A stretch of 35,231 nt of DNA, from the NCBI GenBank assembly GCA_028691765.1, contig JAQUYS010000006.1, forward strand, positions 1 through 35,231. The letters are read 5' to 3'. A program made the translations under genes and the position numbers. The stretch is from Candidatus Nanoarchaeia archaeon (lineage in GTDB: Archaea > Nanobdellota > Nanobdellia > Woesearchaeales > SKGA01). Numbering within the stretch: the stretch's first letter is position 1; every line of letters starts with the position of its first letter. This document shows positions 14,651 through 33,937 of this stretch, piece by piece. Below the pieces are notes generated by a model, which was not told the origin of the DNA, did not search any database, and saw only the letters and a list, made by a program, of their open reading frames with translations.

Positions 14651-17600
14651 TTGGCTGATTTTGAAGTAGTTTGTTCTAAAGAAATGGAGAAGTATTTTAC
14701 TGAATTAGATTCAAATACTAAAAAATGCTACGATATTGCAACTATCGCTAGAAAGAAGGGTTTTGATCCTGAAGATTATGTTGAAATTAAACTTGCAAAA
14801 AATATGGCTGAAAGAGTAGTAGGAATTATTGCCGTTGTTGCTCCACAAATTATCAACTCAGGTGTTGTAGAAAGAATTGTTGAACTTGAAAAAAAATATG
14901 AATCTTTGGATTGGAGAATTGCATTTATAATTGCACATGAAATTGCACAACAAAAATTTTGTTCTTTCAAAGATGAAAAAGAAGCAATTGAAGTCGGCAT
15001 AAGAACGGGTTTCTGTTATGTTACTGTGGGCGTTGTATCTTCACCATTAGAAGGTTTAACATCAATAGATATTTTACCAAGAAGGGATGGAACTGGAAAT
15101 TATTTTAGATTAAATTATTCTGGACCGATTAGAAATGCTGGTGGAACTGGCGCATCAGTTAGCGTTTTGATTGCAGATTATGTAAGAAAAAAAATGGGTT
15201 ATGCAAAATATGATCCTGATGAAAATGAAATTAAAAGATGTTCTGCTGAATTAGAAGATTATCATCAATATGTTGCAAATTTACAATATTATCCATATAA
15301 AGAAGAAGTTGATTTTTTAATGAGACATATACCTGTTGAAATAGGTGGAGAGCCTTCAGAAAAAAGAGAAATTTCAAATGCAAGTTTAAAAGATTTACCA
15401 AGAATTGAAACAAATTTATTGAGAAGTGGTTATTGTTTAATTCATTCTTCATGCATTCCTTTAAAATCTCCCAAACTTTGGAAAAATTTAAGCAAATGGG
15501 GACATGAATTTGACATGCACGATTGGGATTTTCTAGAAAAACACATTAAATTACAAAAAGAATTGAAATCAACAAAAACTGAAACAAAAACTGAAACAAA
15601 AGATGTTGAAGAAAGAATTCCGACGATACCTGGTTTATTGATTTCTAAAAAAATTAAAACAGATTCTGTCTTTATAACTGATCTTGTGGGTGGACGGCCT
15701 GTTCTTGGTCATCCTATGAGGAGTGGTTCTTTTAGATTAAGATATGGACGAAGTAGAACAAGTGGGTATTCTGGTCAAAGCACTCATCCTGCAACATTGG
15801 GTGTAATGAACGATATGATTGCAATTGGAACACAATTAAAGGTTGAACGTCCTGGTAAAGCTGCATTATTCACATCTTGTGATAATTTAATGGGACCAAC
15901 AGTCAAATTAAAAGATGGTAGTGTTGTTTATATTGATTCTTTTGAAGAAGCAAAAAAACTTTCTCCCGAAGTTGAAGAAATTATTTATAATGGTGACGCT
16001 TTAATCGCTTACGGAGATTTTTTCGACAGAGCACATATTTTAATACCTCCTGGATATGTTGAAGAATATTGGATTTTGGAAGTTAAAGAAGCTTTAAAAA
16101 TACACGTTGGAGAATTTGATTTAGAATTATACTCCAAATATTTAGAAATACCAAAAGAGTTTTTAGAAAAATTATTTTTTAATCCTATAACAACAAAAGT
16201 TTCATTTGATACAGCCGAGAACATAAGTCAAAAATTAAATGTGCCTCTTCATCCTGCACACATTTATTTTTATAAAGAAATTGATTTAGAACAATTCCGT
16301 TCCTTAATACAATGGTTTATACATGCACAATTCCAGTTAGAGATTCCTAGAATTACCTTACCTTATGGGGAAGAATATGTTAATGCAAAAAGAGCGTTAG
16401 AATTATTAGGAGTTCCCCACAAACTTGAAAACGGATATGTACACATTCTATCAGATCACGCATTAGCACTTACAAAAACGTTAAACATTTTTTCATCTTT
16501 AGAAGCTAAAGATTATCTAGAATTGATTGAAGAAAATAAAGAATTGTATCCTTTAGAAATAATAAATAAATTTTCTAATTTTAAAATAAAGGACAAATCA
16601 GGAATTTTCATTGGAGCAAGAATGGGGAGACCTGAAAAATGTAAAATGCGAAAAATGAAAGGTAATCCTCACGGTCTATTTCCTGTTGGAGAAGATGGTG
16701 GAAGATTGCGAAGTTTTCAATCTGCGTTTGATACAGAAAAAATAACATCTTCCTTTCCTGTTTACATTTGCCCTAAATGTAAAAATAAAACTCCTTTAAG
16801 AATTTGTGAAATGTGTGAAACAAAAACAATTCGACAAAAAATAGAACGAGCTACTGGAGAAGAAATTTCACCTGCACTTGCAGAACAAATGACGGATAAA
16901 GTTTTTGTGGATTACAAAGAATGGAGTGTTCCTATAAATTCAATCTTTGAATATTGTTTAAAAAAAATAAATACCAAAATTTACCCTGATTTAATTAAAG
17001 GTGTAAGAGGTATGGTTGGTAAAGACAAAAGTGTTGAACATCCAATTAAAGCCTTATTAAGAGCAAAAAATGGAATTTGTGTTAATAAAGATGGAACCAT
17101 TCGTTATGATTCTAGTGAAGTTACTTTAACTCATTTCAAACCTAAAGAAATAGGCGTATCCATAGAAAAATTAAAAAAATTAGGATATTTAAAAGACATT
17201 TATAATAAACCTTTAGAAAATAATAATCAAATTTTAGAATTAAAAGTTCAAGACGTAGTTATGCCTATTGGTGTAGGTTCTCCAGAAGAAGGAAGTGATC
17301 AAATATTTCTGCGAACATCTCAATTCATAGATGATCTTTTAGTTTATGTTTATGGTTTAGAACCATTTTACAAAGCAAAAACTGCAGATGATTTAATAGG
17401 ACAATTAATCGTAGGACTTGCACCACATACTTCTGCAGGAAGTGTTGGTAGATTAATAGGATGGACTAAATCTCAAGGAATGATGGCTCATCCAATGTAT
17501 CACGCAGCCATGAGGAGAGACTGTTTTTCATATGATTCCAGAATCCCTGTAAAAATAAATGGTCGGTGGGAAATAATAAAAATTGGAGAATTAGTTGAAA

Positions 17601-19684
17601 ATCTTAATCCTTCAAAAATTGTAGATGCTTTTAGCACTAAAGAGATAAAAGTAAAAAACTACATCACTTTAGGATTGAAAAATAATAAAATTGTAGAAGT
17701 GAATATTAATAATTTTACTAAACATACTCCCCAGAAAATGATAGAATTTAAAACGAAATTAGGAAGAACAATTAAAACAACATTTAATCACAAGCATTTA
17801 GTTTTTGAAAATAATAAAACTCAAATAAAACAAGCATATGAATTAAAGAAAGGATGTATATTAAAAATCCCATATAATTACAATATATCTCAAAAAAATG
17901 TAACTAAATTAAATTTATTAGAATTATTCAAAACTAAACCTTATGTTATGGTTAGAGGATTAAAACAACAAATTAAAGATTTGAGAAAACAATTAAAATT
18001 ATTTAAATTAAATAAAATGGATGTAAATAACTTTTTCACCAGAGATTGTATACCTATCAATGTAGCCTATAAATTAATAAACAGTAATAAAAATATAGAT
18101 AAAAAAGAATTATTTCTAAGTGTTAAAAGAGATTCAGTAAAATTGCCTCTTGAAATAAAAGTGGATGAAACATTTTTAAAAATTATTGGTTTATATATTG
18201 CTGAAGGTTATTGTAGGAAAAAAATAGAGGGTAAGGGATATTATCAAATATATATTGCAGCACAAAAAGAAGAAATTAGAACCTATATTAAAAAATATTT
18301 TAAATTAAATTTAAATTTGACTCCTACAGAAAATAAAGACGACCGATTAACATTTTCAAGTAGAATTTTATATGAGTTATTTGCAGATGTTCTCAAATTA
18401 GGCTCAACAGCATATGAAAAAAGAATTCCATCCCAATTTCTAGCACTACCAGAACAAAAATTAGGACACTTATTATCAGGATATTTTGAAGGGGATGGTT
18501 CTGTATCTAAAACTGATTTGAGAATTTCATTTGATACAGTTTCCACAGGTTTGATGAGGGATATTGAATTTGTATTGGGAAGAATGCATACTTTCGTCAA
18601 ATATAAAGAATATGTGAGTAAACCAGGTAAACAAGTTGCTGATTTTTATATTCGTAAAAATGTACCTGTGCCATCATTTAAAGTAATTAAAGGCACCATA
18701 CAAAGCAAATTCATACATCAAATATCCAAATATATTAAATTTATATCAAAAATTAAAGAAGAAAAATTTCAATACATTTTAAAAAATAAAAAACATAGGA
18801 ATTTGTTTGTTGATTTTGATGATGATTATTTTTATGATGAAATAATTGAAGTTAAAGAAGGAATTCCTGAAACAAGTTACTGCCTAAATGTGGAAAACAA
18901 CACAGTCATAGTGGATGGAATCTTAACAAAACAATGTGATGGTGATGAAAGTTGTGCGTTTTTAGTACTTGATGCATTTTTAAATTTCTCACAAAAATTT
19001 TTAGGAACTTCAAGAGGTTCAACAATGGATGCGCCTTTAGTTCTAACCTCTATTTTAAATCCTTCTGAAGTTGATGATATGGCTTTCAAAATGGATATAG
19101 CAGACCATTATCCTCTTGAATTTTATAGAGCGTGTGAAGAATTCAAATATCCTTGGGATGTAAAAATAAAACAAATAAGTTCTATTTTAGGAACTCCTGA
19201 ACAATTTGAAGGAATGATGTTCACACATGATTTAGATGATATGAATGAAGGGGTTCTTTGCTCATCCTACAAAACACTTCCCTCAATGGCCGAGAAAATA
19301 GAATGTCAAATGGATTTAGCAAAAAAAATAAGAGCCGTAGATACAAGTGATGTTGCTAGGTTAGTTATAGAAAAACATTTTATAAGGGATACGAGAGGTA
19401 ATTTAAGAAAGTTTTCATTACAACAATTTCGTTGCGGAAAATGCAATACTAAATATAGGCGTCCACCTTTAATTGGAAAATGTACTAATTGTGGTGGAAA
19501 AATAATCTTCACCATCTCCGAAGGTTCAATAATTAAATACTTAGACATGAGTTTAGATTTAGCATATACTTACAATGTTTCGGATTATTTAAAAGAATCT
19601 TTAGAATTAATTAAAAAACGAATATTGCATGTTTTTGGTAAAGAAAAAGAAAAACAAACGGATTTAGATAGTTTCTATACTTAA
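14651..19684 (+). CDS. polC: DNA polymerase II (PolD) large subunit DP2, interrupted by an intein; TTG start
   Basis: GPIRNAGGTGASVSVLIADYVRKKMGY, GGRPVLGHPMRSGSFRLRYGRSRTSG, GARMGRPEKCKMRKMKGNPHGLFPVGEDGG, PHTSAGSVGRLIGW, CDGDES. Confidence 0.97.
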   Translation: MADFEVVCSKEMEKYFTELDSNTKKCYDIATIARKKGFDPEDYVEIKLAKNMAERVVGIIAVVAPQIINSGVVERIVELEKKYESLDWRIAFIIAHEIAQQKFCSFKDEKEAIEVGIRTGFCYVTVGVVSSPLEGLTSIDILPRRDGTGNYFRLNYSGPIRNAGGTGASVSVLIADYVRKKMGYAKYDPDENEIKRCSAELEDYHQYVANLQYYPYKEEVDFLMRHIPVEIGGEPSEKREISNASLKDLPRIETNLLRSGYCLIHSSCIPLKSPKLWKNLSKWGHEFDMHDWDFLEKHIKLQKELKSTKTETKTETKDVEERIPTIPGLLISKKIKTDSVFITDLVGGRPVLGHPMRSGSFRLRYGRSRTSGYSGQSTHPATLGVMNDMIAIGTQLKVERPGKAALFTSCDNLMGPTVKLKDGSVVYIDSFEEAKKLSPEVEEIIYNGDALIAYGDFFDRAHILIPPGYVEEYWILEVKEALKIHVGEFDLELYSKYLEIPKEFLEKLFFNPITTKVSFDTAENISQKLNVPLHPAHIYFYKEIDLEQFRSLIQWFIHAQFQLEIPRITLPYGEEYVNAKRALELLGVPHKLENGYVHILSDHALALTKTLNIFSSLEAKDYLELIEENKELYPLEIINKFSNFKIKDKSGIFIGARMGRPEKCKMRKMKGNPHGLFPVGEDGGRLRSFQSAFDTEKITSSFPVYICPKCKNKTPLRICEMCETKTIRQKIERATGEEISPALAEQMTDKVFVDYKEWSVPINSIFEYCLKKINTKIYPDLIKGVRGMVGKDKSVEHPIKALLRAKNGICVNKDGTIRYDSSEVTLTHFKPKEIGVSIEKLKKLGYLKDIYNKPLENNNQILELKVQDVVMPIGVGSPEEGSDQIFLRTSQFIDDLLVYVYGLEPFYKAKTADDLIGQLIVGLAPHTSAGSVGRLIGWTKSQGMMAHPMYHAAMRRDCFSYDSRIPVKINGRWEIIKIGELVENLNPSKIVDAFSTKEIKVKNYITLGLKNNKIVEVNINNFTKHTPQKMIEFKTKLGRTIKTTFNHKHLVFENNKTQIKQAYELKKGCILKIPYNYNISQKNVTKLNLLELFKTKPYVMVRGLKQQIKDLRKQLKLFKLNKMDVNNFFTRDCIPINVAYKLINSNKNIDKKELFLSVKRDSVKLPLEIKVDETFLKIIGLYIAEGYCRKKIEGKGYYQIYIAAQKEEIRTYIKKYFKLNLNLTPTENKDDRLTFSSRILYELFADVLKLGSTAYEKRIPSQFLALPEQKLGHLLSGYFEGDGSVSKTDLRISFDTVSTGLMRDIEFVLGRMHTFVKYKEYVSKPGKQVADFYIRKNVPVPSFKVIKGTIQSKFIHQISKYIKFISKIKEEKFQYILKNKKHRNLFVDFDDDYFYDEIIEVKEGIPETSYCLNVENNTVIVDGILTKQCDGDESCAFLVLDAFLNFSQKFLGTSRGSTMDAPLVLTSILNPSEVDDMAFKMDIADHYPLEFYRACEEFKYPWDVKIKQISSILGTPEQFEGMMFTHDLDDMNEGVLCSSYKTLPSMAEKIECQMDLAKKIRAVDTSDVARLVIEKHFIRDTRGNLRKFSLQQFRCGKCNTKYRRPPLIGKCTNCGGKIIFTISEGSIIKYLDMSLDLAYTYNVSDYLKESLELIKKRILHVFGKEKEKQTDLDSFYT
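17522..18934 (+). mobile_element. Intein (471 aa) with LAGLIDADG endonuclease in DP2 at the RRD|CDGDE site
   Basis: Starts CFSYDSRIPVKINGRWEIIKIGELVE; block B TFNHKHLVF; LAGLIDADG-like IIGLYIAEG and LLSGYFEGDGS; ends SYCLNVENNTVIVDGILTKQ|C. Confidence 0.95.
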
Positions 19685-21763: not shown

Positions 21764-23275
21764 TTATTGTTTAAGACGTTTAAGTTCAGCCACAGAAGTA
21801 ACATCTTTTTGAGTATTAAAATTCATTATTTTGACATCTCTTGTTTTTAATGACATTAATATTGCTCTCGCTGGTTGTGGAGCCAAACCTCTTTTTTCTT
21901 GATCTTCAGTTATAGCAGTCCAGCAAGAAGTGTTCAAACAGGAAACATTCCTATATGTTGTTGAAACAACACGGTGAATATGTCCAGTTACGAAAATATC
22001 TGGAACGGGATCTATAACTAAGGCATCTTCATAAACATCTGGAACATATAATGTTGAACCATGTGATGGAGCAAGATGTCTTCTTTTTAATAAAAATTTC
22101 ATAATTTCATCAACTGCTTTTTGTCCGCCTGCTGCTCTGATTCGGGGAACAACATCAGAGTAATAAATTAACGAACCCCCGTGATAAATCAAAACATCTA
22201 ATCCTGAAAAAATATCTGAAACGTCTAAAGAAACATATGCTGGATTAGAAACCATAATTACATTTGGTAAATCCCACAATGAAGAAGCATAATCCTTTTC
22301 AATAGGTAATTGGGGTTCGGCAAGTCTACCTGTATCATGGTTGCCTGGTGAAATAATTATTTTAATATTTGAAGGAATTTTTTTTAAATATTGAGCTAAC
22401 AACTCATATTGCCCTTTCATATTATCTACCAACAAATCATTTTGTTGTCCTGGATAAATGCCAACTCCTTCAACAATATCTCCTGTTAAAATTAAATATT
22501 TAACTTTTTTTGCAATCTCTCTTTGAGCAGGAGTTCCCATCTTACCATTTAACCACAATAGAAATTTTTTAAATTCATTATCTAAAAATTCTTTTGAACC
22601 CACATGAAAATCCCCTAAAAAAACAGCATAATGATCAAAAGGAGATTTCTTCAATTCTTTACTCAAAGGAATATCTGGATGTAAAATTTTTTTTGCAAAA
22701 AGAAGATCTCCACCACTAGTTCCAACTAATCCAATAACCTCATCAAGTACTAAATCTTTGACAATCGGAATCAATTCTTCGTTATCTTTATTTACTAAAA
22801 CTTTTGTAACTCCACTTAAATCTTCCAACTCTAAAATAAAATGTCCATTTTTAGTTTCAGAAATATTTAAAATCATTCCAATAACTGAAACTGTGTCTCG
22901 ATCTTTCTTTCCACTGATTCGATTTATGGATGTTAAACCCGTTAATTCCGTTCTCTCCCTCAACATTCGCTCTATAGCTTTAAACCTTATATTGAAATAT
23001 CTAACAAAATCATCTACACTTCGTTTACAAGGTTCTTTTTCAAAAGATTTTAAAATTGAAACTCTACCCAAATCATCTGACTTTTTAGAAAAAAATGTTT
23101 TAAAAAAAAGATTAGAATCAAAATCTGGAAAAAAGCTTTTGAAGAAAACTTTTAATTCTTTTTCAATTTGAATTTTATCATCTAATTTTAAAATTGATTT
23201 TAGTTTTAAAGCTGATTCATTATCAACAAATTCATCTCGTTCAACAAGAAAATCAATTATTGTTTGCGAATCCAT
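21764..23275 (-). CDS. polB: DNA polymerase II (PolD) small subunit DP1; start revised to ATG 23275 (MDSQTIIDFLVERDEF)
   Basis: Calcineurin-like phosphatase motifs LGDFHVGSKEF, LTGDIVEGVGIYPGQ, SPGNHDTGRLAEPQ, VTGHIHRV. The track start (23326) would overlap cdc6 by 50 bp. Confidence 0.96.
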   Translation of the reverse strand: MDSQTIIDFLVERDEFVDNESALKLKSILKLDDKIQIEKELKVFFKSFFPDFDSNLFFKTFFSKKSDDLGRVSILKSFEKEPCKRSVDDFVRYFNIRFKAIERMLRERTELTGLTSINRISGKKDRDTVSVIGMILNISETKNGHFILELEDLSGVTKVLVNKDNEELIPIVKDLVLDEVIGLVGTSGGDLLFAKKILHPDIPLSKELKKSPFDHYAVFLGDFHVGSKEFLDNEFKKFLLWLNGKMGTPAQREIAKKVKYLILTGDIVEGVGIYPGQQNDLLVDNMKGQYELLAQYLKKIPSNIKIIISPGNHDTGRLAEPQLPIEKDYASSLWDLPNVIMVSNPAYVSLDVSDIFSGLDVLIYHGGSLIYYSDVVPRIRAAGGQKAVDEIMKFLLKRRHLAPSHGSTLYVPDVYEDALVIDPVPDIFVTGHIHRVVSTTYRNVSCLNTSCWTAITEDQEKRGLAPQPARAILMSLKTRDVKIMNFNTQKDVTSVAELKRLKQ

Positions 23276-23276
23276 T

Positions 23277-24509
23277 TTAATTTTTTTTGTCGTTAAATTC
23301 CAATTCTTTTGCAAGAAGTGTTTCAACTTTATTTAATAGATGTGACGGAATACCTAAATTTATTTCTCTAGTTCTTCCAAATCTTCCTTTTGAAATAACT
23401 TTTGCAGTTATTAATCCCAACATATCTAACTCAGCAACAATATCTGATAAACGTCTTTGAGTTATGGGTCTTAAACCTGCTTTAGGACACAAATCTTTGT
23501 AAATATCATAAAGATCACCTGTAAATATTTGTTTCTTTTTATTTTGTTCATCGTTTCTAATTAAAAAAATAGAATATAATACTAATTGAAATTGTTTTGG
23601 TTGGGTGTGTACAACATCAATTATTCTATCTTTTTCAATTTTTTCTTCAGCTTCATCTATATGTTTGATTTGTACAATTTTACTTTCTGAACGTTCAGCC
23701 AATTCTCCTGCAACTCTCAACAACTCTAAAGCTCTTCTTGCATCACCATGTTCTCTAGCTGCAAAAGCAGCACATTTAGGAATTACTCCTTCATCAACAG
23801 CATCTTTTTTAAACGCTAAAGAGGCTCTTTTTCTCAAAATATCTTGAATTTGTAAAGCATTGTATGGTGGAAATATAATTTCTTCTTCACTTAATGAACT
23901 TTTAACTCGAGGATCAATATAATTACTAAACATTAAATCGTTACTTATACCAATTATTGAAATTTGAGAATTTTTTAATTCAGAATTAATACGAGTTAGA
24001 TTATAAATCACTTCATCTCCTGTTCGTTTTATAAGTTGATCAATTTCATCCAATATTAAAATCAAAATTTGTTCTTTAAAATCTAAAGCTTTGAAAAAAA
24101 TATTGTAAACTTCATCAGTTGGGAGTCCTGTTGGAGGTATTTCTTTTCCTAAAGCTCTTGCAATTTCAGCAATTAATCGATATTCAGTGTCTGCTATTTT
24201 TTTTAACTTACAATTTATGTAAATCACATTAACAGGAATATTATTTTCTTTTGCAACTTTATGTATTTGTTCAGTAGTATATCTAACTGACGCTGTTTTA
24301 CCTGTACCAGTTTTACCATATATAAATAAATTTGAAGGTTTATCTACTTTTAAAGCAGGAGCTAAAATATTGGCAATTTGATTTATTTGTTCATCCCTGT
24401 GCTCCATTTCATTTGGAACATATACTGATTGTAACACTTTTTTATTTGCAAATAAAGAATCTGTTTGAAGAAACTTTTCAAAAAAACCATTTAATTTCTT
24501 GGATACCAT
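23277..24509 (-). CDS. cdc6: Orc1/Cdc6 family replication initiator
   Basis: Walker A YGKTGTGKTASVRYTTEQI, Walker B LILILDEIDQL, AREHGDARRALELLRVAGELAE, C-terminal wHTH. Confidence 0.97.
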   Translation of the reverse strand: MVSKKLNGFFEKFLQTDSLFANKKVLQSVYVPNEMEHRDEQINQIANILAPALKVDKPSNLFIYGKTGTGKTASVRYTTEQIHKVAKENNIPVNVIYINCKLKKIADTEYRLIAEIARALGKEIPPTGLPTDEVYNIFFKALDFKEQILILILDEIDQLIKRTGDEVIYNLTRINSELKNSQISIIGISNDLMFSNYIDPRVKSSLSEEEIIFPPYNALQIQDILRKRASLAFKKDAVDEGVIPKCAAFAAREHGDARRALELLRVAGELAERSESKIVQIKHIDEAEEKIEKDRIIDVVHTQPKQFQLVLYSIFLIRNDEQNKKKQIFTGDLYDIYKDLCPKAGLRPITQRRLSDIVAELDMLGLITAKVISKGRFGRTREINLGIPSHLLNKVETLLAKELEFNDKKN

Positions 24510-24636
24510 GATTAAAACGATAAATAATACTATTTAAAAACATATCTTAAATTTAAAAACACATTATTAAAAATACATATTATAACATATATTTAATTAT
24601 AAATATTTTAAAAACATCATATTTAAGACACCCACA

Positions 24637-24658
24637 CACACCACCATTTCATATGGAA
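24637..24658 (-). repeat. ORB-like element 1 (CACACCACCATTTCATATGGAA; minus strand TTCCATATGAAATGGTGGTGTG)
   Basis: Inverted copy of 25010-25031 with one mismatch. Confidence 0.75.
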
Positions 24659-25009
24659 ATTTAATTTTATAAAATTCAACCCTTAAAATCAATATTAAAT
24701 TGTTCAATTTAAATTAAACAACAATTATTAAGATCATATCACATATATCTGTACAAGTAAATTATTTTTATTAATTGTTTAAAACACATTAATTGCAATC
24801 ATTATCTATATTATAAAGACAATTATCAATCATTATATTTTTATTATTAAATTATGTTTATTATTATTGTTATTATTAAATTAGATTTATATTATTATAT
24901 TATATTCTTTTTATTTATATATATATTTTCAATATTGAAATAAATTATTTTAAAACAATTTTTATTTTTAAAAAACGCTTTCAGCCCTCTTTAAAACATT
25001 ATTTACATC

Positions 25010-25031
25010 TTCCATATGAAATGATGGTGTG
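25010..25031 (+). repeat. ORB-like element 2 (TTCCATATGAAATGATGGTGTG)
   Basis: Inverted copy of 24637-24658 with one mismatch; TTCCA..GAAA core plus G-rich tail. Confidence 0.75.
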
Positions 25032-25168
25032 ACTCTCCACCTTTAACAAAAACACATTAAATACTTAAATACACTATTACTCAGTAAATACATTTAGATA
25101 ACTTTATAAACTCTGCATTGCGTGAGCTGGGCTTTGTGTCGCCAACATTCTAGGGTTTTGCCTTTGCC

Positions 25169-25576
25169 ATGGAGGTGGCAGTCGTGAAACAAGAAGTAAG
25201 TCAGAAAAACTATTTAGAAAAGCTACACTCTTTCAAGAAATCGCTTTTTAGCGAATTTTCTTGGTTAGAGAGTCGTGATGTGTGTTTGTTGATGGGAAAA
25301 TTAGCACATTATCACTACAACAAAAATAAATTTATTCTTCTTGGAAAAGAAAAAGAAATTTATGATTTTCTAATAAAACATAGTTACAATCCTTACACAA
25401 TTTATCGTTGGCTTTTACTTGAAAGAATTCCTGATGATATTAAGCATCAGCTTAAGAATAAAGAAATGTCGCAAAAAAAAGCCGTTTCTGAGGCTTTCAA
25501 GCGAAGAAAAGAAACAACTGAATCTATTTGTTTGAGTGTTAAAGAGCTAGGTTTAGCTTTAATAAGGAGGATGTGA
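25169..25576 (+). CDS. Small HTH/ParB-like protein coupled to a recombinase; GTG start at 25184 is plausible
   Basis: SYNPYTIYRWLLLERIPDDIKHQLKNKEMSQKKAVSEAFKRR is ParB-HTH-like; GGAGGTG 6 nt before GTG 25184; stop overlaps the next gene. Confidence 0.5.
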   Translation: MEVAVVKQEVSQKNYLEKLHSFKKSLFSEFSWLESRDVCLLMGKLAHYHYNKNKFILLGKEKEIYDFLIKHSYNPYTIYRWLLLERIPDDIKHQLKNKEMSQKKAVSEAFKRRKETTESICLSVKELGLALIRRM

Positions 25577-26310
25577 ATATGGGAATAAAACATGCAAGAC
25601 CAAATGCTACAAAAAGAACATTGCCTAATGTTCTAAATAAAAAGCAATTAATTGCTTTGTTTGAGAATATTGAAGAAGGCTCAGTATTCATGGGCTGTTT
25701 GATTGCTTTATTTTGTGGTTTAAGAATTTCTGAAGTTTGTAATTTGAAAAAACAAGATATCGATTTAGAAACTGAAAAAGTTTTAATTAAAGAAGGAAAA
25801 GGTTCGAAAGATAGAATTGTAATGCTTCCTTCAACATTAAAACCAATTATTGAAAAATGGTTTAGATACAATAAAGATAATGAATATTTTATTTCTAATG
25901 ATTGGGGAAATAAATATGCTCCAGCAATTTTGGCTGGAAAATTTAGGAAAGGTTTAGAAAAAGCATAATTATCTATTGAAACTTTTAAATCAACTACTGG
26001 ACAACAAAGATATGCTTATAGTTTTCATACTTTAAGACATACATATGCAACTTATCTTTTAGAGCAAGGTGTGGATTTGTATTATGTTCAAAGAAGTTTA
26101 GGACATACTGATATCCATACAACACAAATTTATGCTTATATTAGTAATAAAGATTTGCAAGGAAAAATAAACATGGCTTTTGGAAAGAGAATTTCTGAGA
26201 AGAATTATTCAACAGAGGATCCTTTAAAAGTGTTGAAGTTGAAGTTTGCTAATGGTGAGTTAAGTAGAGAAGAATTTGAAGAAAAGTATATGTTGTTAAG
26301 TGAAATTTAA
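25573..26310 (+). pseudogene. Tyrosine recombinase catalytic domain with SHOCT-like tail, interrupted by in-frame TAA (25966-25968)
   Basis: CGLRISEV (R), KEGKGSKDRIVML (K), then after the stop in the same frame HTLRHTYAT (HxxR), LGHTDIHTTQIYAY (H,Y); tail DPLKVLKLKFANGELSREEFEEKYMLL. Confidence 0.85.
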
Positions 26311-27183: not shown

Positions 27184-28467
27184 TTAAGAGGGGTTAAGGA
27201 TGCTTTGAATAAATTCAACTCCTTCTTTCAAAGTATGACAATAAGATTTCTTTCCATCTACAAATTTTTTGTATTTAGTTTTTTCTTTTCTTGGACAAAT
27301 TATAATCCAATAATCAAAGTGTTTATTCAACCAATCAACTTTTCTTTGGATTTGAATATCTTTGTTAGTTCCAGTTTCAATTTCAACTGCAATTTTCAAA
27401 CCAATAACGCTAAACATAACATCTGCTCTTTGATTATTAATTTCATATTCAATTTTAGACATGGAATTATCAATTGAAGCAATTAAATGTTTTTTACAGA
27501 AATGATTATCACTTTCTGAAGGGTTATCATTTTTAATTAAAACTTTATTTCCTGATCTGCCATCTAAAAACATAAATGATTTATGTCGATAACCACATTT
27601 TGTAGTAAGTAAATCTCTATCTTTAATTGAAAGTTCATTATAGAAATAAAATTTCTTTTCAAGAAGTTCTTTATTGATTTCTCCATAAACATCTTCTTCT
27701 TGAATTTTTAGTTTTCCTTGTTTCTTTAATTCCATTGCTTTATAGTATAACTCTTGTTCATCTTCATCTTTGTCTTGAAAATCATGAGGAAATCCATCAG
27801 TACTTAAAACGAATTTAGAAATTTCATTCCACTGAGTCTTTTTATTTTTCTCTTCTTGTTTAAATATTCTGTATTCTTTTCTAGCATCTTCAATAACATC
27901 TTTATCAAATTCTAAAGCCCATTCAGGTATTGATTCATTACTACCCTTTTCTATAAAATGATTAAGTAATCTCGAAACTTGTTCTTCATAAATTTTCTCT
28001 AGTTGTTTTTCTTCTAATATTTCTTTTCTTCGTTGTTCTGCCCAATATATTTCTCTTTTTTTATCTTGCTTTATTTTTTCTTTAATTTCTTTAATTCTAA
28101 TGTCGACATTGGATTTAGTTTTATTTACTTCAATAGGAAATGTTTCTTTGTATTCTTCTAATTTTTGAAGTTTTTTTGCACATTCTTCAAGAGTAGAAGG
28201 TGAATATTTAACAACATCATGAAATTCTCTTGTAATCTTTTCAAATTCTTCTTTCTTTTGCTTTTTGTGGCGATAAATTGAGATGATTGCAATGATGATG
28301 CCAATAAGTAAAATAACGCTTAAAAGAAAAACTATGCCGACATGTGCGATTGCCCACCAATCAATAGGATTCTCTTCAAAATGTTTATATCCCCAAAGTC
28401 CAAATAAAACTATTACTGCAATAATAAGATCTCTATTCGCATTTGGATTTTCTTTTAGTTCTCCCAT
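27184..28467 (-). CDS. Membrane protein with two TM segments, coiled coil and C-terminal PD-(D/E)XK-like nuclease domain
   Basis: Hydrophobic LIIAVIVLFGLWGY and IVFLLSVILLIGIIIAIISIY; C-terminal RADVMFSVIGLKIAVEIETGTN. Confidence 0.6.
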   Translation of the reverse strand: MGELKENPNANRDLIIAVIVLFGLWGYKHFEENPIDWWAIAHVGIVFLLSVILLIGIIIAIISIYRHKKQKKEEFEKITREFHDVVKYSPSTLEECAKKLQKLEEYKETFPIEVNKTKSNVDIRIKEIKEKIKQDKKREIYWAEQRRKEILEEKQLEKIYEEQVSRLLNHFIEKGSNESIPEWALEFDKDVIEDARKEYRIFKQEEKNKKTQWNEISKFVLSTDGFPHDFQDKDEDEQELYYKAMELKKQGKLKIQEEDVYGEINKELLEKKFYFYNELSIKDRDLLTTKCGYRHKSFMFLDGRSGNKVLIKNDNPSESDNHFCKKHLIASIDNSMSKIEYEINNQRADVMFSVIGLKIAVEIETGTNKDIQIQRKVDWLNKHFDYWIIICPRKEKTKYKKFVDGKKSYCHTLKEGVEFIQSILNPS

Positions 28468-28964
28468 ATTCTTTGGAAATCATCAATTACTCTTTGTCCA
28501 GAATAATTTAGATAAATATCTGTTGTTAAAATTGAAGAGTGTCCTAGAATTCCTTGCAAAGCTCTCAAGTTTCCACCTTTATGCAAATATGTAACTGCAA
28601 AAGTATGTCTTAAAACGTGTGGGCTTACTGGCTTTCTAATTCTTGCTTTTTCTGCGACGATCTTTACATATTTTTGAATAGTTCTCATAGCCATAGGAAA
28701 AGATTTAGTTTTTGCAAATAATTGTGTTACATAAAATTTGGCTAGATTGCTTAAAGGAATAACTCTTCGCTTTTTTCCTTTTCCAATTAAAGTTATACAA
28801 TTTCTCTGCCAAGAAATATTTTCTTCCTTTAAATTGGCTAATTCTGAAACTCTCATGCCTGTATCTAAAAGAAGGTTAATAATTACTTCTTCTTCAAAAC
28901 TTTGGCATGATTTTCTCAACAGAAGAACTTCGTCTTCTTCTAAAGGCTCTCGTTTGTAATCCAT
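28455..28964 (-). CDS. Minimal tyrosine recombinase (169 aa, catalytic domain only)
   Basis: GMRVSEL (R), GKGKKRRVIPL (K), PHVLRHTFA (HxxR), LGHSSILTTDIYLNY (H,Y); no N-terminal core-binding domain. Confidence 0.9.
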   Translation of the reverse strand: MDYKREPLEEDEVLLLRKSCQSFEEEVIINLLLDTGMRVSELANLKEENISWQRNCITLIGKGKKRRVIPLSNLAKFYVTQLFAKTKSFPMAMRTIQKYVKIVAEKARIRKPVSPHVLRHTFAVTYLHKGGNLRALQGILGHSSILTTDIYLNYSGQRVIDDFQRIWEN

Positions 28965-31349: not shown

Positions 31350-32141
31350 GTGATTAAAATAAGGATTGTGAAAAATTTTAACGAATCTAAACCAATTCAA
31401 TTAATTCATGGAGATTGCATTAAAGTAATGCAACAACTACCTGAAAATTCAGTCGATATGATATTTGCAGACCCACCATATTTCCTTTCAAATGGAGGAA
31501 TTTCTTGTCAAAATGGACAAATGGTTTCAGTAAATAAAGCAGAATGGGATAAATCCAAAGGGCTTAAAGCAGATTTTCAATTTACAAATGAGTGGATTAA
31601 AGAAGCAAAACGAATTTTAAAAGAAAATGGCACAATTTGGATTTCTGGCACAATGCATAATATTTATCAAGTTGGTTTTGCATTACAATTAAACAATTTC
31701 AAATTATTAAACGAAATAAGTTGGTTTAAACCAAATGCTCCTCCAAATCTTTCATGCAAATACTTTGCTCATGCACACGAAACAATAATTTGGGCGAGAA
31801 AAAACGCCAAAATTCCACATTTTTTCAATTATGAAGTAATGAAGCAATGGAATGACAAAATCGCCTCAGAAGGCAAACAAATGCGAAGTGTTTGGAGCAT
31901 ACCTTTTACTCCAAAAGAAGAGAAAATTCAGGGTAGACATCCAACTCAAAAACCAATGGAGCTTTTAAAAAGAATAATTTCAGCTTCAACTGAAGAAGGA
32001 GCAGTTATTTTAGACCCTTTTAATGGTTCAGGAACGACAGGAGTTGTGGCTAAAATGCTAAATAGACAATATATTGGCATAGATCAAGAAAAAGAATTCC
32101 TTCAATTAACTGAAAGAAGGCTAAAAAATCAAAGTATTTAA
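31350..32141 (+). CDS. dpnA: DNA N6-adenine methyltransferase, DpnA-like (second DpnII methylase)
   Basis: ADPPYFLSNGG motif IV, DPFNGSGTTGVVAKML motif I; directly upstream of Dam-like and DpnII genes. Confidence 0.88.
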   Translation: MIKIRIVKNFNESKPIQLIHGDCIKVMQQLPENSVDMIFADPPYFLSNGGISCQNGQMVSVNKAEWDKSKGLKADFQFTNEWIKEAKRILKENGTIWISGTMHNIYQVGFALQLNNFKLLNEISWFKPNAPPNLSCKYFAHAHETIIWARKNAKIPHFFNYEVMKQWNDKIASEGKQMRSVWSIPFTPKEEKIQGRHPTQKPMELLKRIISASTEEGAVILDPFNGSGTTGVVAKMLNRQYIGIDQEKEFLQLTERRLKNQSI

Positions 32142-32153
32142 ATAATCTTCAAA

Positions 32154-32999
32154 ATGACAAATAATATGGGTGTGGAAATTCCAAAGTTTGTGAAATGGGC
32201 AGGTGGTAAAGGACAACTTATTGAACAATTTATTCCTTTATTTCCTACAAAATTTAATACATACATAGAACCATTTGTAGGAGGAGGAGCAGTTTTCTTT
32301 CACATAATACAAAATTACAAACCCAAAAAAATAATTCTTTCAGATATTAATGAAGAATTAATTAATACTTACAAAATTGTTAAAACAGATGTTGAAAGAT
32401 TAATTGTAGAATTAAAACAACATAAAGAATATCATTTAGCAGAAGGTAAAAAATATTATTTAACAATTAGAGCAACAAATCCTAATTCTCTTCCTCCATT
32501 AGAAAGAGCGGCGAGATTTATTTATTTAAACAAAACTTGTTTTAATGGATTATATCGAGTAAATTCTAAAGGAGAATTTAATGTTCCAATGGGAGCATAC
32601 AAAAATCCAGATATTGTTCAAGAAGATAGATTAAGAAAAGTTAACAAATTATTAAAAAATGTAACTTTGAAAATTATGTCTTTTGAAAAAGTTTTAACAT
32701 TAGCAAAAAAAGGAGATTTCATTTATTTTGATCCTCCTTATTATCCTTTGAAAAATAAAAATAGTTTCACAACATATACAAAAGATTCATTTATGGAACC
32801 TGAACAAGAATTACTTGCAGAGGTTTTCAAAAAGTTAGATAAAAAAGGATGCTTTGTAATGTTAAGTAATAGTAATACAAAATTTATTAAAGATTTATAC
32901 AAAAAATTTAAAATTAAAATAGTTAAAGCAACAAGAATGATTAATTGCGATGGAAAAAATCGTGGAAAAATTAATGAAGTTGTTGTAATGAATTATTAG
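32154..32999 (+). CDS. dpnM: Dam/DpnM-family DNA adenine methyltransferase (GATC)
   Basis: KWAGGKGQLIEQFIPLFP, YIEPFVGGGAVFF, LSDINEELINTY, FIYFDPPYYPL. Confidence 0.93.
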   Translation: MTNNMGVEIPKFVKWAGGKGQLIEQFIPLFPTKFNTYIEPFVGGGAVFFHIIQNYKPKKIILSDINEELINTYKIVKTDVERLIVELKQHKEYHLAEGKKYYLTIRATNPNSLPPLERAARFIYLNKTCFNGLYRVNSKGEFNVPMGAYKNPDIVQEDRLRKVNKLLKNVTLKIMSFEKVLTLAKKGDFIYFDPPYYPLKNKNSFTTYTKDSFMEPEQELLAEVFKKLDKKGCFVMLSNSNTKFIKDLYKKFKIKIVKATRMINCDGKNRGKINEVVVMNY

Positions 33000-33007
33000 G
33001 TGTTAAA

Positions 33008-33937
33008 ATGAAATATTTACAAACATATAAAAAATTAAATCTTAAAGATGAAAAAGAAGTATTTGATTATTTAATCAAAAACTTAAAAGAATCTATTTTT
33101 ACATGGGATTACTTTGTTGATTTCAAAAAAGCAAAAACAAATATTTCTTTAATTGAAAAAGAATTAAATTTACTTAATTTTTTAATAGGAAAATCAAACT
33201 TAGATAAAGAACTAATAGATTTAGTTACTGAATATCCTAAAATTAGAAAAGTTTTACCAATTCTTATCGCTATAAGACAAAGTAAAATGAAAGATTTACA
33301 AATAATAGATGACTTTGAAGAATTAGTTTCAGAAAATAAAATTGAATTATTTAATCCAAACAAACAATTAAGCAAAGAACTAAAAGAAGATTTAATTAAA
33401 TTCTTTGATGAATCTGGATTAAAACAAATTTTCCTAGATAAAAATATTAAGAATGTTGTTGATTATTGTTTTGGTGTTGAAGTTGGTATGGATACTAACG
33501 CTAGAAAAAACAGAACTGGAACTTCAATGGAAAGTATTGTTGAAGCAATATTAGAAAAATTCTGCAAAAGTAATAAATTAGAATTTATTTCACAAGCAAC
33601 ACAATCAAAAATAAAAGCAAAATGGAACTTCGATATTTCCTTAGATAAAACAGATAGAAGATTTGATTTTGCAGTATTTAATAAAGTAAAAAATAAATTA
33701 TTTTTATTAGAAACTAATTTTTATGGTGGAGGAGGTTCAAAACTAAAATCTACTGCAGGCGAATATCAATATTTATTTGATTTCTTAAAAAAACAAAACA
33801 TTGATTTAATTTGGGTAACTGATGGTGTTGGTTGGAAAACAACAACTAAATCTTTGTTTGAAACATTCTTGCATAACGAATATTTATTTAATATTGAATT
33901 AGTTAAACAAGGAGTTTTGAAAGAAATTATACTATGA
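33008..33937 (+). CDS. dpnB: Type II restriction endonuclease, DpnII family (GATC)
   Basis: FTWDYFVDFKKAKTNISLI...LNFLIGKSN, YPKIRKVLPILIAIR, GVEVGMDTNARKNRTGTSMESIVE, RFDFAVFNK..LFLLETNFYGGGGSKL. Confidence 0.93.
   Translation: MKYLQTYKKLNLKDEKEVFDYLIKNLKESIFTWDYFVDFKKAKTNISLIEKELNLLNFLIGKSNLDKELIDLVTEYPKIRKVLPILIAIRQSKMKDLQIIDDFEELVSENKIELFNPNKQLSKELKEDLIKFFDESGLKQIFLDKNIKNVVDYCFGVEVGMDTNARKNRTGTSMESIVEAILEKFCKSNKLEFISQATQSKIKAKWNFDISLDKTDRRFDFAVFNKVKNKLFLLETNFYGGGGSKLKSTAGEYQYLFDFLKKQNIDLIWVTDGVGWKTTTKSLFETFLHNEYLFNIELVKQGVLKEIIL

Follow-up and report, generated by a model that had tools for sequence, protein, structure and literature searches.

A cdc6-adjacent replication origin predicted in a Woesearchaeota-type DPANN archaeon, with a conserved dyad between its origin recognition boxes

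The locus beside the orc1/cdc6 gene in the window, the whole 35,231-nucleotide stretch of DNA analysed here, is well supported by its sequence as the replication origin (oriC) of a Woesearchaeota-type DPANN archaeon. The best explanation of the whole, to which we assign a probability of about 0.92, is an oriC at ~24637–25031 where Cdc6 would occupy both flanking origin recognition boxes (ORBs), MCM would be loaded and a central dyad would serve as a third site. An oriC beside cdc6 had been proposed in an earlier note on this DNA, and the proposal is supported by the inverted ORB pair, the AT-rich core, their conservation in relatives and the GC skew of a closed relative genome. The boxes, the AT-rich candidate duplex unwinding element (DUE) and the adjacency of cdc6 support the assignment because they match published archaeal origins, in which inverted ORBs with G-strings enclose an AT-rich DUE next to orc1/cdc6 (PMC12141716, PMC3528665, PMC4164010). 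The central dyad, an element that the earlier note overlooked, appears to be undescribed; the oriC itself is of a known type.

The host genome comprises 1.09 Mb in 99 contigs, and the window is a single 35-kb contig that carries a cdc6-PolD replication cluster (Table 1). The Cdc6 protein scores above the cut-offs of both NCBIfam NF001625 (ORC1-type DNA replication protein) and TIGR02928, and the solved structures nearest to it, 2qby_A and 2v1u_A, are both archaeal Orc1. Its Walker A (GKTGTGKT) and Walker B (LDEID) motifs are invariant in 14 relatives. By its sequence, the orc1/cdc6 gene adjoining the boxes is a bona fide, functional-looking gene. The top NCBIfam match of DP1 is the PolD small subunit, at a score slightly under the cut-off, and the DP2 gene is split by an intein (Intein_splicing) bearing a LAGLIDADG domain (LAGLIDADG_3). 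To the right of the origin, a 135-aa protein without a Pfam match (25169–25576) precedes two tyrosine-recombinase genes (Phage_integrase; 25573–26310 and 28455–28964), the first of which is broken by an in-frame TAA. A DpnII-type restriction-modification cluster, composed of an N6/N4 methylase, a D12 adenine methylase and a DpnII endonuclease, occupies 31350–33937. Searches of the origin locus with Rfam and ARAGORN returned no match to an RNA element or tRNA.

Table 1 Features of the candidate origin and the adjoining replication genes in the window.
Feature	Coordinates	Strand	Description
PolD large subunit DP2	14651..19684	+	Pfam PolC_DP2 domains
PolD small subunit DP1	21764..23326	-	Directly downstream of cdc6; Pfam DNA_pol_E_B + Metallophos
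orc1/cdc6 initiator gene	23277..24509	-	410 aa; NF001625, Pfam Cdc6_lid + Cdc6_C
ORB-L, origin recognition box TTTCCATATGAAATGGTGGTGTG	24637..24659	-	G-rich end leftward (outward); PWM score 28.6
AT-rich region, candidate duplex unwinding element (DUE)	24659..25009	.	13.4% G+C
Central dyad ATATATTTTCAATATTGAAATAAAT, candidate dimeric accessory-factor site	24921..24945	.	Leave-one-out PWM score 17.1
ORB-R, origin recognition box CTTCCATATGAAATGATGGTGTG	25009..25031	+	G-rich end rightward (outward); PWM score 27.8

The 22-bp inverted repeats first noticed at this locus are CACACCACCATTTCATATGGAA at 24637–24658 and TTCCATATGAAATGATGGTGTG at 25010–25031, and the coordinates given for them proved exact. 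The two 22-nt arms are 95% complementary (1 mismatch) and are separated by 351 nt; none of 40 dinucleotide shuffles of the region gave a 22-bp inverted pair with ≤1 mismatch. A search for further ORB copies, allowing ≤3 mismatches, found only two places in the 1.09-Mb genome and 0 with a reversed control. The G-rich tails point outward at both boxes, as had been described, and the claimed fit to the archaeal ORB also holds, because the common motif of Ori-Finder 2 / DoriC, TCCA[CG]T[TG]GAAA[TC][GA]AAGGGGT (PMC4164010), is matched in register at 16/20 positions by the right box and 15/20 by the left. The window boxes depart from this motif in the spacer triplet, which is TAT and not [CG]T[TG], and in the tail, which is GGTGT and not GGGGT; the consensus of the relatives matches it more closely. 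Apart from ORB-L and ORB-R, the best ORB-like PWM score in the window is 13.5. A third box considered within cdc6 (24404–24418) was rejected; it scores 13.5, compared with 28 for the real boxes, and overlies codons of a conserved Cdc6 stretch.

A box model was trained on the regions upstream of cdc6 in 49 relatives, almost all of different families, and was then run on additional genomes from the class as well as on 80 named loci from GTDB genomes, with duplicates dropped before counts were made. The 115 box sites in the 49 upstream regions converge on the ORB consensus TTTCCATAAGAAATAAAGGGGTG, which contains the TTCCA, GAAA and G-run of the published common motif (PMC4164010). The recurrence of the boxes at the cdc6 loci of related genomes, on which the earlier note had made its proposal depend, is extensive: they are present in nearly all relatives, which span more than 50 families, and are again inverted and directed outward; a left and a right box point apart at 110 loci in total. 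Most genomes also carry a divergent cdc6-like second gene. Neither boxes nor dyad were found in the stretches examined around each of 8 inspected copies, and this gene was accordingly rejected as marking a second origin.

The DNA between the boxes, described earlier as ~350 bp of nearly pure A/T, indeed measures 351 bp at 13.4% G+C, and only 0.03% of the 351-bp stretches across the window are as low in G+C. Two smaller features reported within it, a 22-bp near-palindrome at 24700–24721 and a 14-bp direct repeat at 24841 and 24870, are present, but a functional role was rejected for both. Equally good features arise in 14% and 6% of dinucleotide shuffles, respectively, and no recurrence was seen in relatives either, so that both are treated as chance.

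The element that does recur inside the AT-rich region is a dyad with the consensus TATTATTTTCWATATWGAAAATAAA, in which a C and a G are fixed 7 bp apart and the remainder is pure A/T. The window copy contains a perfect 14-bp palindrome, TTTCAATATTGAAA, at 24927–24940 within the conserved 25-bp motif. Its leave-one-out PWM score (Table 1) compares with a shuffle mean of 0.1 and a shuffle maximum of 11.5; when the entire window is scanned, the dyad scores 18.4 on the + strand and, shifted by one base, 20.0 on the - strand, and the next place scores 8.3. With leave-one-out scoring, 31 of the 34 complete DUEs beat all 100 of their dinucleotide shuffles and 34/34 reach p ≤ 0.05, the top of the 3400 shuffle scores being 12.8. 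The pattern was repeated in independently fetched loci. Among the 110 two-box loci, the dyad is found in 67, is weak in 7 and is absent from 36. Its relative position between the boxes is 0.49 ± 0.16 (66 loci; KS versus uniform, p = 0.001), and the window dyad is off-centre at 0.78. On the Cdc6 tree (a fast tree whose root was not inferred), presence and absence of the dyad correspond to only 6 changes, with the dyad-less rows mainly in one 18-row clade and one 13-row Pacearchaeota-like clade. Since these two clades keep the boxes, the dyad is not required throughout the class. In genomes G070 and G081 (L171 and L163), whose Cdc6 proteins are only ~42% identical, a related palindrome, ATTATTCTATATAGAATAAT, follows ORB-L ~258 bp upstream of cdc6. 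From such sequences, the CTATATAG-centred dyad may extend beyond the strict motif.

The GC skew was evaluated as the detrended cumulative skew over the whole sequence of a closed relative (G013; 1,301,350 bp in one contig). The minimum lies at 760,921 and the maximum at 167,976; cdc6 occupies 764,191–765,396, which places the minimum 4 kb from the cdc6 locus. The skew range was reached by 0 of 2000 block permutations (p = 0.0005). The inflection that the earlier note had anticipated is thus present at the cdc6 locus of G013, whereas another closed genome (G114; 919,375 bp) shows a weak skew (p = 0.09) with a minimum 68 kb from cdc6. The G013 minimum also bears on the reading that the boxes are operators for cdc6 transcription, bound by Cdc6 or by another regulator, at a locus that is not an origin. 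Just before the cdc6 start codon, 33 of 47 relatives (e.g. L018, L011 and L014) have an extra ORB with a TATA-like sequence on its far side, which in 28 of the 33 directly adjoins the box. Autorepression by Cdc6 would predict this arrangement, which suggests that Cdc6 may repress its own promoter in relatives via the extra box. ORB-type boxes probably act at the promoter too, but autoregulation leaves unexplained both the skew minimum at the locus and a second inverted box hundreds of bp off, across an AT-rich desert. A PWM scan of the window found no promoter-type extra box, yet the divergent pair is kept. The operator reading is consequently very improbable. That the inverted repeat is part of a mobile element, as the two Phage_integrase matches just right of the boxes might indicate, has a practically negligible probability, as the boxes fit the ORB consensus and lie beside cdc6 in relatives whose right-hand neighbours differ, being mostly a TrmB-type gene.

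For the preferred reading as an origin, Cdc6 binding, MCM loading and melting are carried over from established archaeal work and would proceed as follows. Orc1/Cdc6 expressed from the adjacent gene would bind ORB-L and ORB-R, with its polarity fixed at each. At oriC1 of Sulfolobus, Orc1/Cdc6 on the ORBs, with ATP, brings MCM to the intervening DNA; here too, the bound protein with ATP would recruit MCM helicases to the AT-rich DNA between the boxes, and the duplex would open within that DNA. The central dyad may constitute a third site, for a putative dimeric protein helping at a later step. Such a protein might space or release the MCM rings, or bend or open the DNA, and the site would then be comparable in role with the ucm motif of Sulfolobus.

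The locus resembles oriC1 of Sulfolobus (S. islandicus / Saccharolobus solfataricus), in which an inverted ORB pair (ORB2 and ORB3) surrounds an AT-rich DUE beside orc1-1 and one extra conserved motif, ucm, lies about midway between the ORBs (PMC12141716). The protein UBP, bound midway in that DUE, is required afterwards for origin activity, and ucm/UBP has been reported only from Sulfolobales and Desulfurococcales (PMC12141716). UBP contacts MCM at its N-terminal domain. In Sulfolobus, ucm is 11 bp long and non-palindromic (ATTATACAAAC, from the paper's oligonucleotides) and is bound by monomeric UBP, whereas the element described here is a 16–25 bp dyad of unrelated sequence; ORB3-DUE-ORB2 spans 130 bp there (PMC12141716), whereas the window DUE alone spans 351 bp. 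Comparison of the dyad consensus with the oligonucleotides of that study revealed no ucm-like sequence. Because its sequence differs and it is palindromic, the dyad falls outside the ucm family; its ucm-like position is the reason for which an analogous accessory factor is proposed. The orc/cdc6 origins of haloarchaea likewise have an AT-rich element between inverted ORBs with a terminal G-string, beside cdc6, but haloarchaeal genomes hold several origins and cdc6 genes (PMC3528665), whereas in the present case a single locus has the boxes and they are absent from the second cdc6-like gene. The third origin motif of the Thermococcaceae listed in Table 1 of Ori-Finder 2, AATG[ACT]ACA[AT]A[AGT]ATG[TA][TG]CATT, is assigned no function there. 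As we read that table, it resembles the dyad in being a near-palindrome in origins without ORB resemblance, but it differs in sequence.

What the dyad does is less firmly indicated than the origin itself, and its distribution bears on this. Across 59 genomes the 18-bp form was counted at 55 places, compared with 6 for the reversed control, and 10 of the 55 are, by position, in a cdc6 DUE. Most of the other copies inspected are intergenic, beside genes of unrelated function. The window genome has two TTWCWATATWGWAA places only, the dyad and one short-form copy on contig C61. G013 contains about ten strong dyads, of which three share a 3-kb stretch at the origin (C1 760949, 762362 and 763691) and some seven further ones spread across the chromosome, and the clustering is reminiscent of segregation or nucleoid-protein sites. 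Such copies favour a dyad that serves as an operator or as a site for a nucleoid protein, without a replication-specific role, a reading that we consider somewhat unlikely. Per kilobase, the dyad is about a thousand-fold denser in the DUE (10 places in ~10 kb versus 45 in ~74 Mb), and there, unlike other DUE sequence, it has been retained in more than 50 families. Moreover, copies away from origins are compatible with an origin role because ucm is essential at Sulfolobus oriC1 though UBP has >300 genomic sites (PMC12141716). Action through DNA structure, with the dyad forming a cruciform or the easiest melting point and not being recognized by a protein, is improbable. A perfect palindrome in an AT-rich region would suit it, and the pair at positions 9/18 is symmetric in 58 cases versus 49.0 expected (Fisher p = 0.013). 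However, this is the sole pair with an excess; covariation is absent from the other variable pairs (11/16 is symmetric in 34/80 versus 38.7 expected), the ATAT core and the C and G bases hardly vary, and a reversed palindrome of equal composition is 9 times rarer. Arms that vary mostly independently make recognition by a symmetric protein more likely than a stem, and the dyad sequence would fit the site of a dimeric protein better than a hairpin. We infer only that the dyad may be protein-bound and may act in initiation. The proposal that it is the site of a dimeric origin-activation protein, analogous to UBP but of separate evolutionary descent, which two sister clades have lost or replaced, is tentative and is held at rather less than even odds.

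A TrmB-type regulator was considered as a candidate binder of the dyad. Its gene is the immediate right-hand neighbour at 32 of 57 dyad loci (e.g. L024:286–1098) versus 1 of 29 loci without the dyad. The family is near-universal in the class, in genomes with or without the dyad, and because it is found in almost all of them regardless, the co-occurrence gives no support to the regulator as the binder, which is kept only as a lead. The dif site of the Xer system is one recombination site per chromosome, with two 11-bp arms around a 6-bp centre. The dyad was rejected as a dif or integrase attachment site, for which a single site per chromosome is expected, yet about ten strong dyads occur in G013.

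A search for work on origins of DPANN archaea, Woesearchaeota or Nanoarchaeota found nothing relevant in openly licensed full text; work in subscription journals is possible. The explicit ORB model for the group can serve to place the origin in fragmented metagenome assemblies. If the dyad is indeed a protein site of the proposed kind, archaeal origins would repeatedly have acquired a lineage-specific third component between their ORBs. The UBP paper closes with the question of whether analogous proteins exist at the origins of more divergent archaea (PMC12141716), and the dyad conserved mid-DUE in so distant a group of archaea opens this question to a direct test.

A minor observation concerns the assemblies themselves. 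Nine of the first 49 loci are cut off by a contig end that falls within the AT-rich region just past ORB-L (G001, G002, G003, G004, G009, G023, G032, G047 and G057). Contigs of the same-family genomes G001–G003 stop inside the DUE, and the breaks in G057 and G032 coincide with the centre of the dyad. Assemblies in this group seem to break systematically at their origins.
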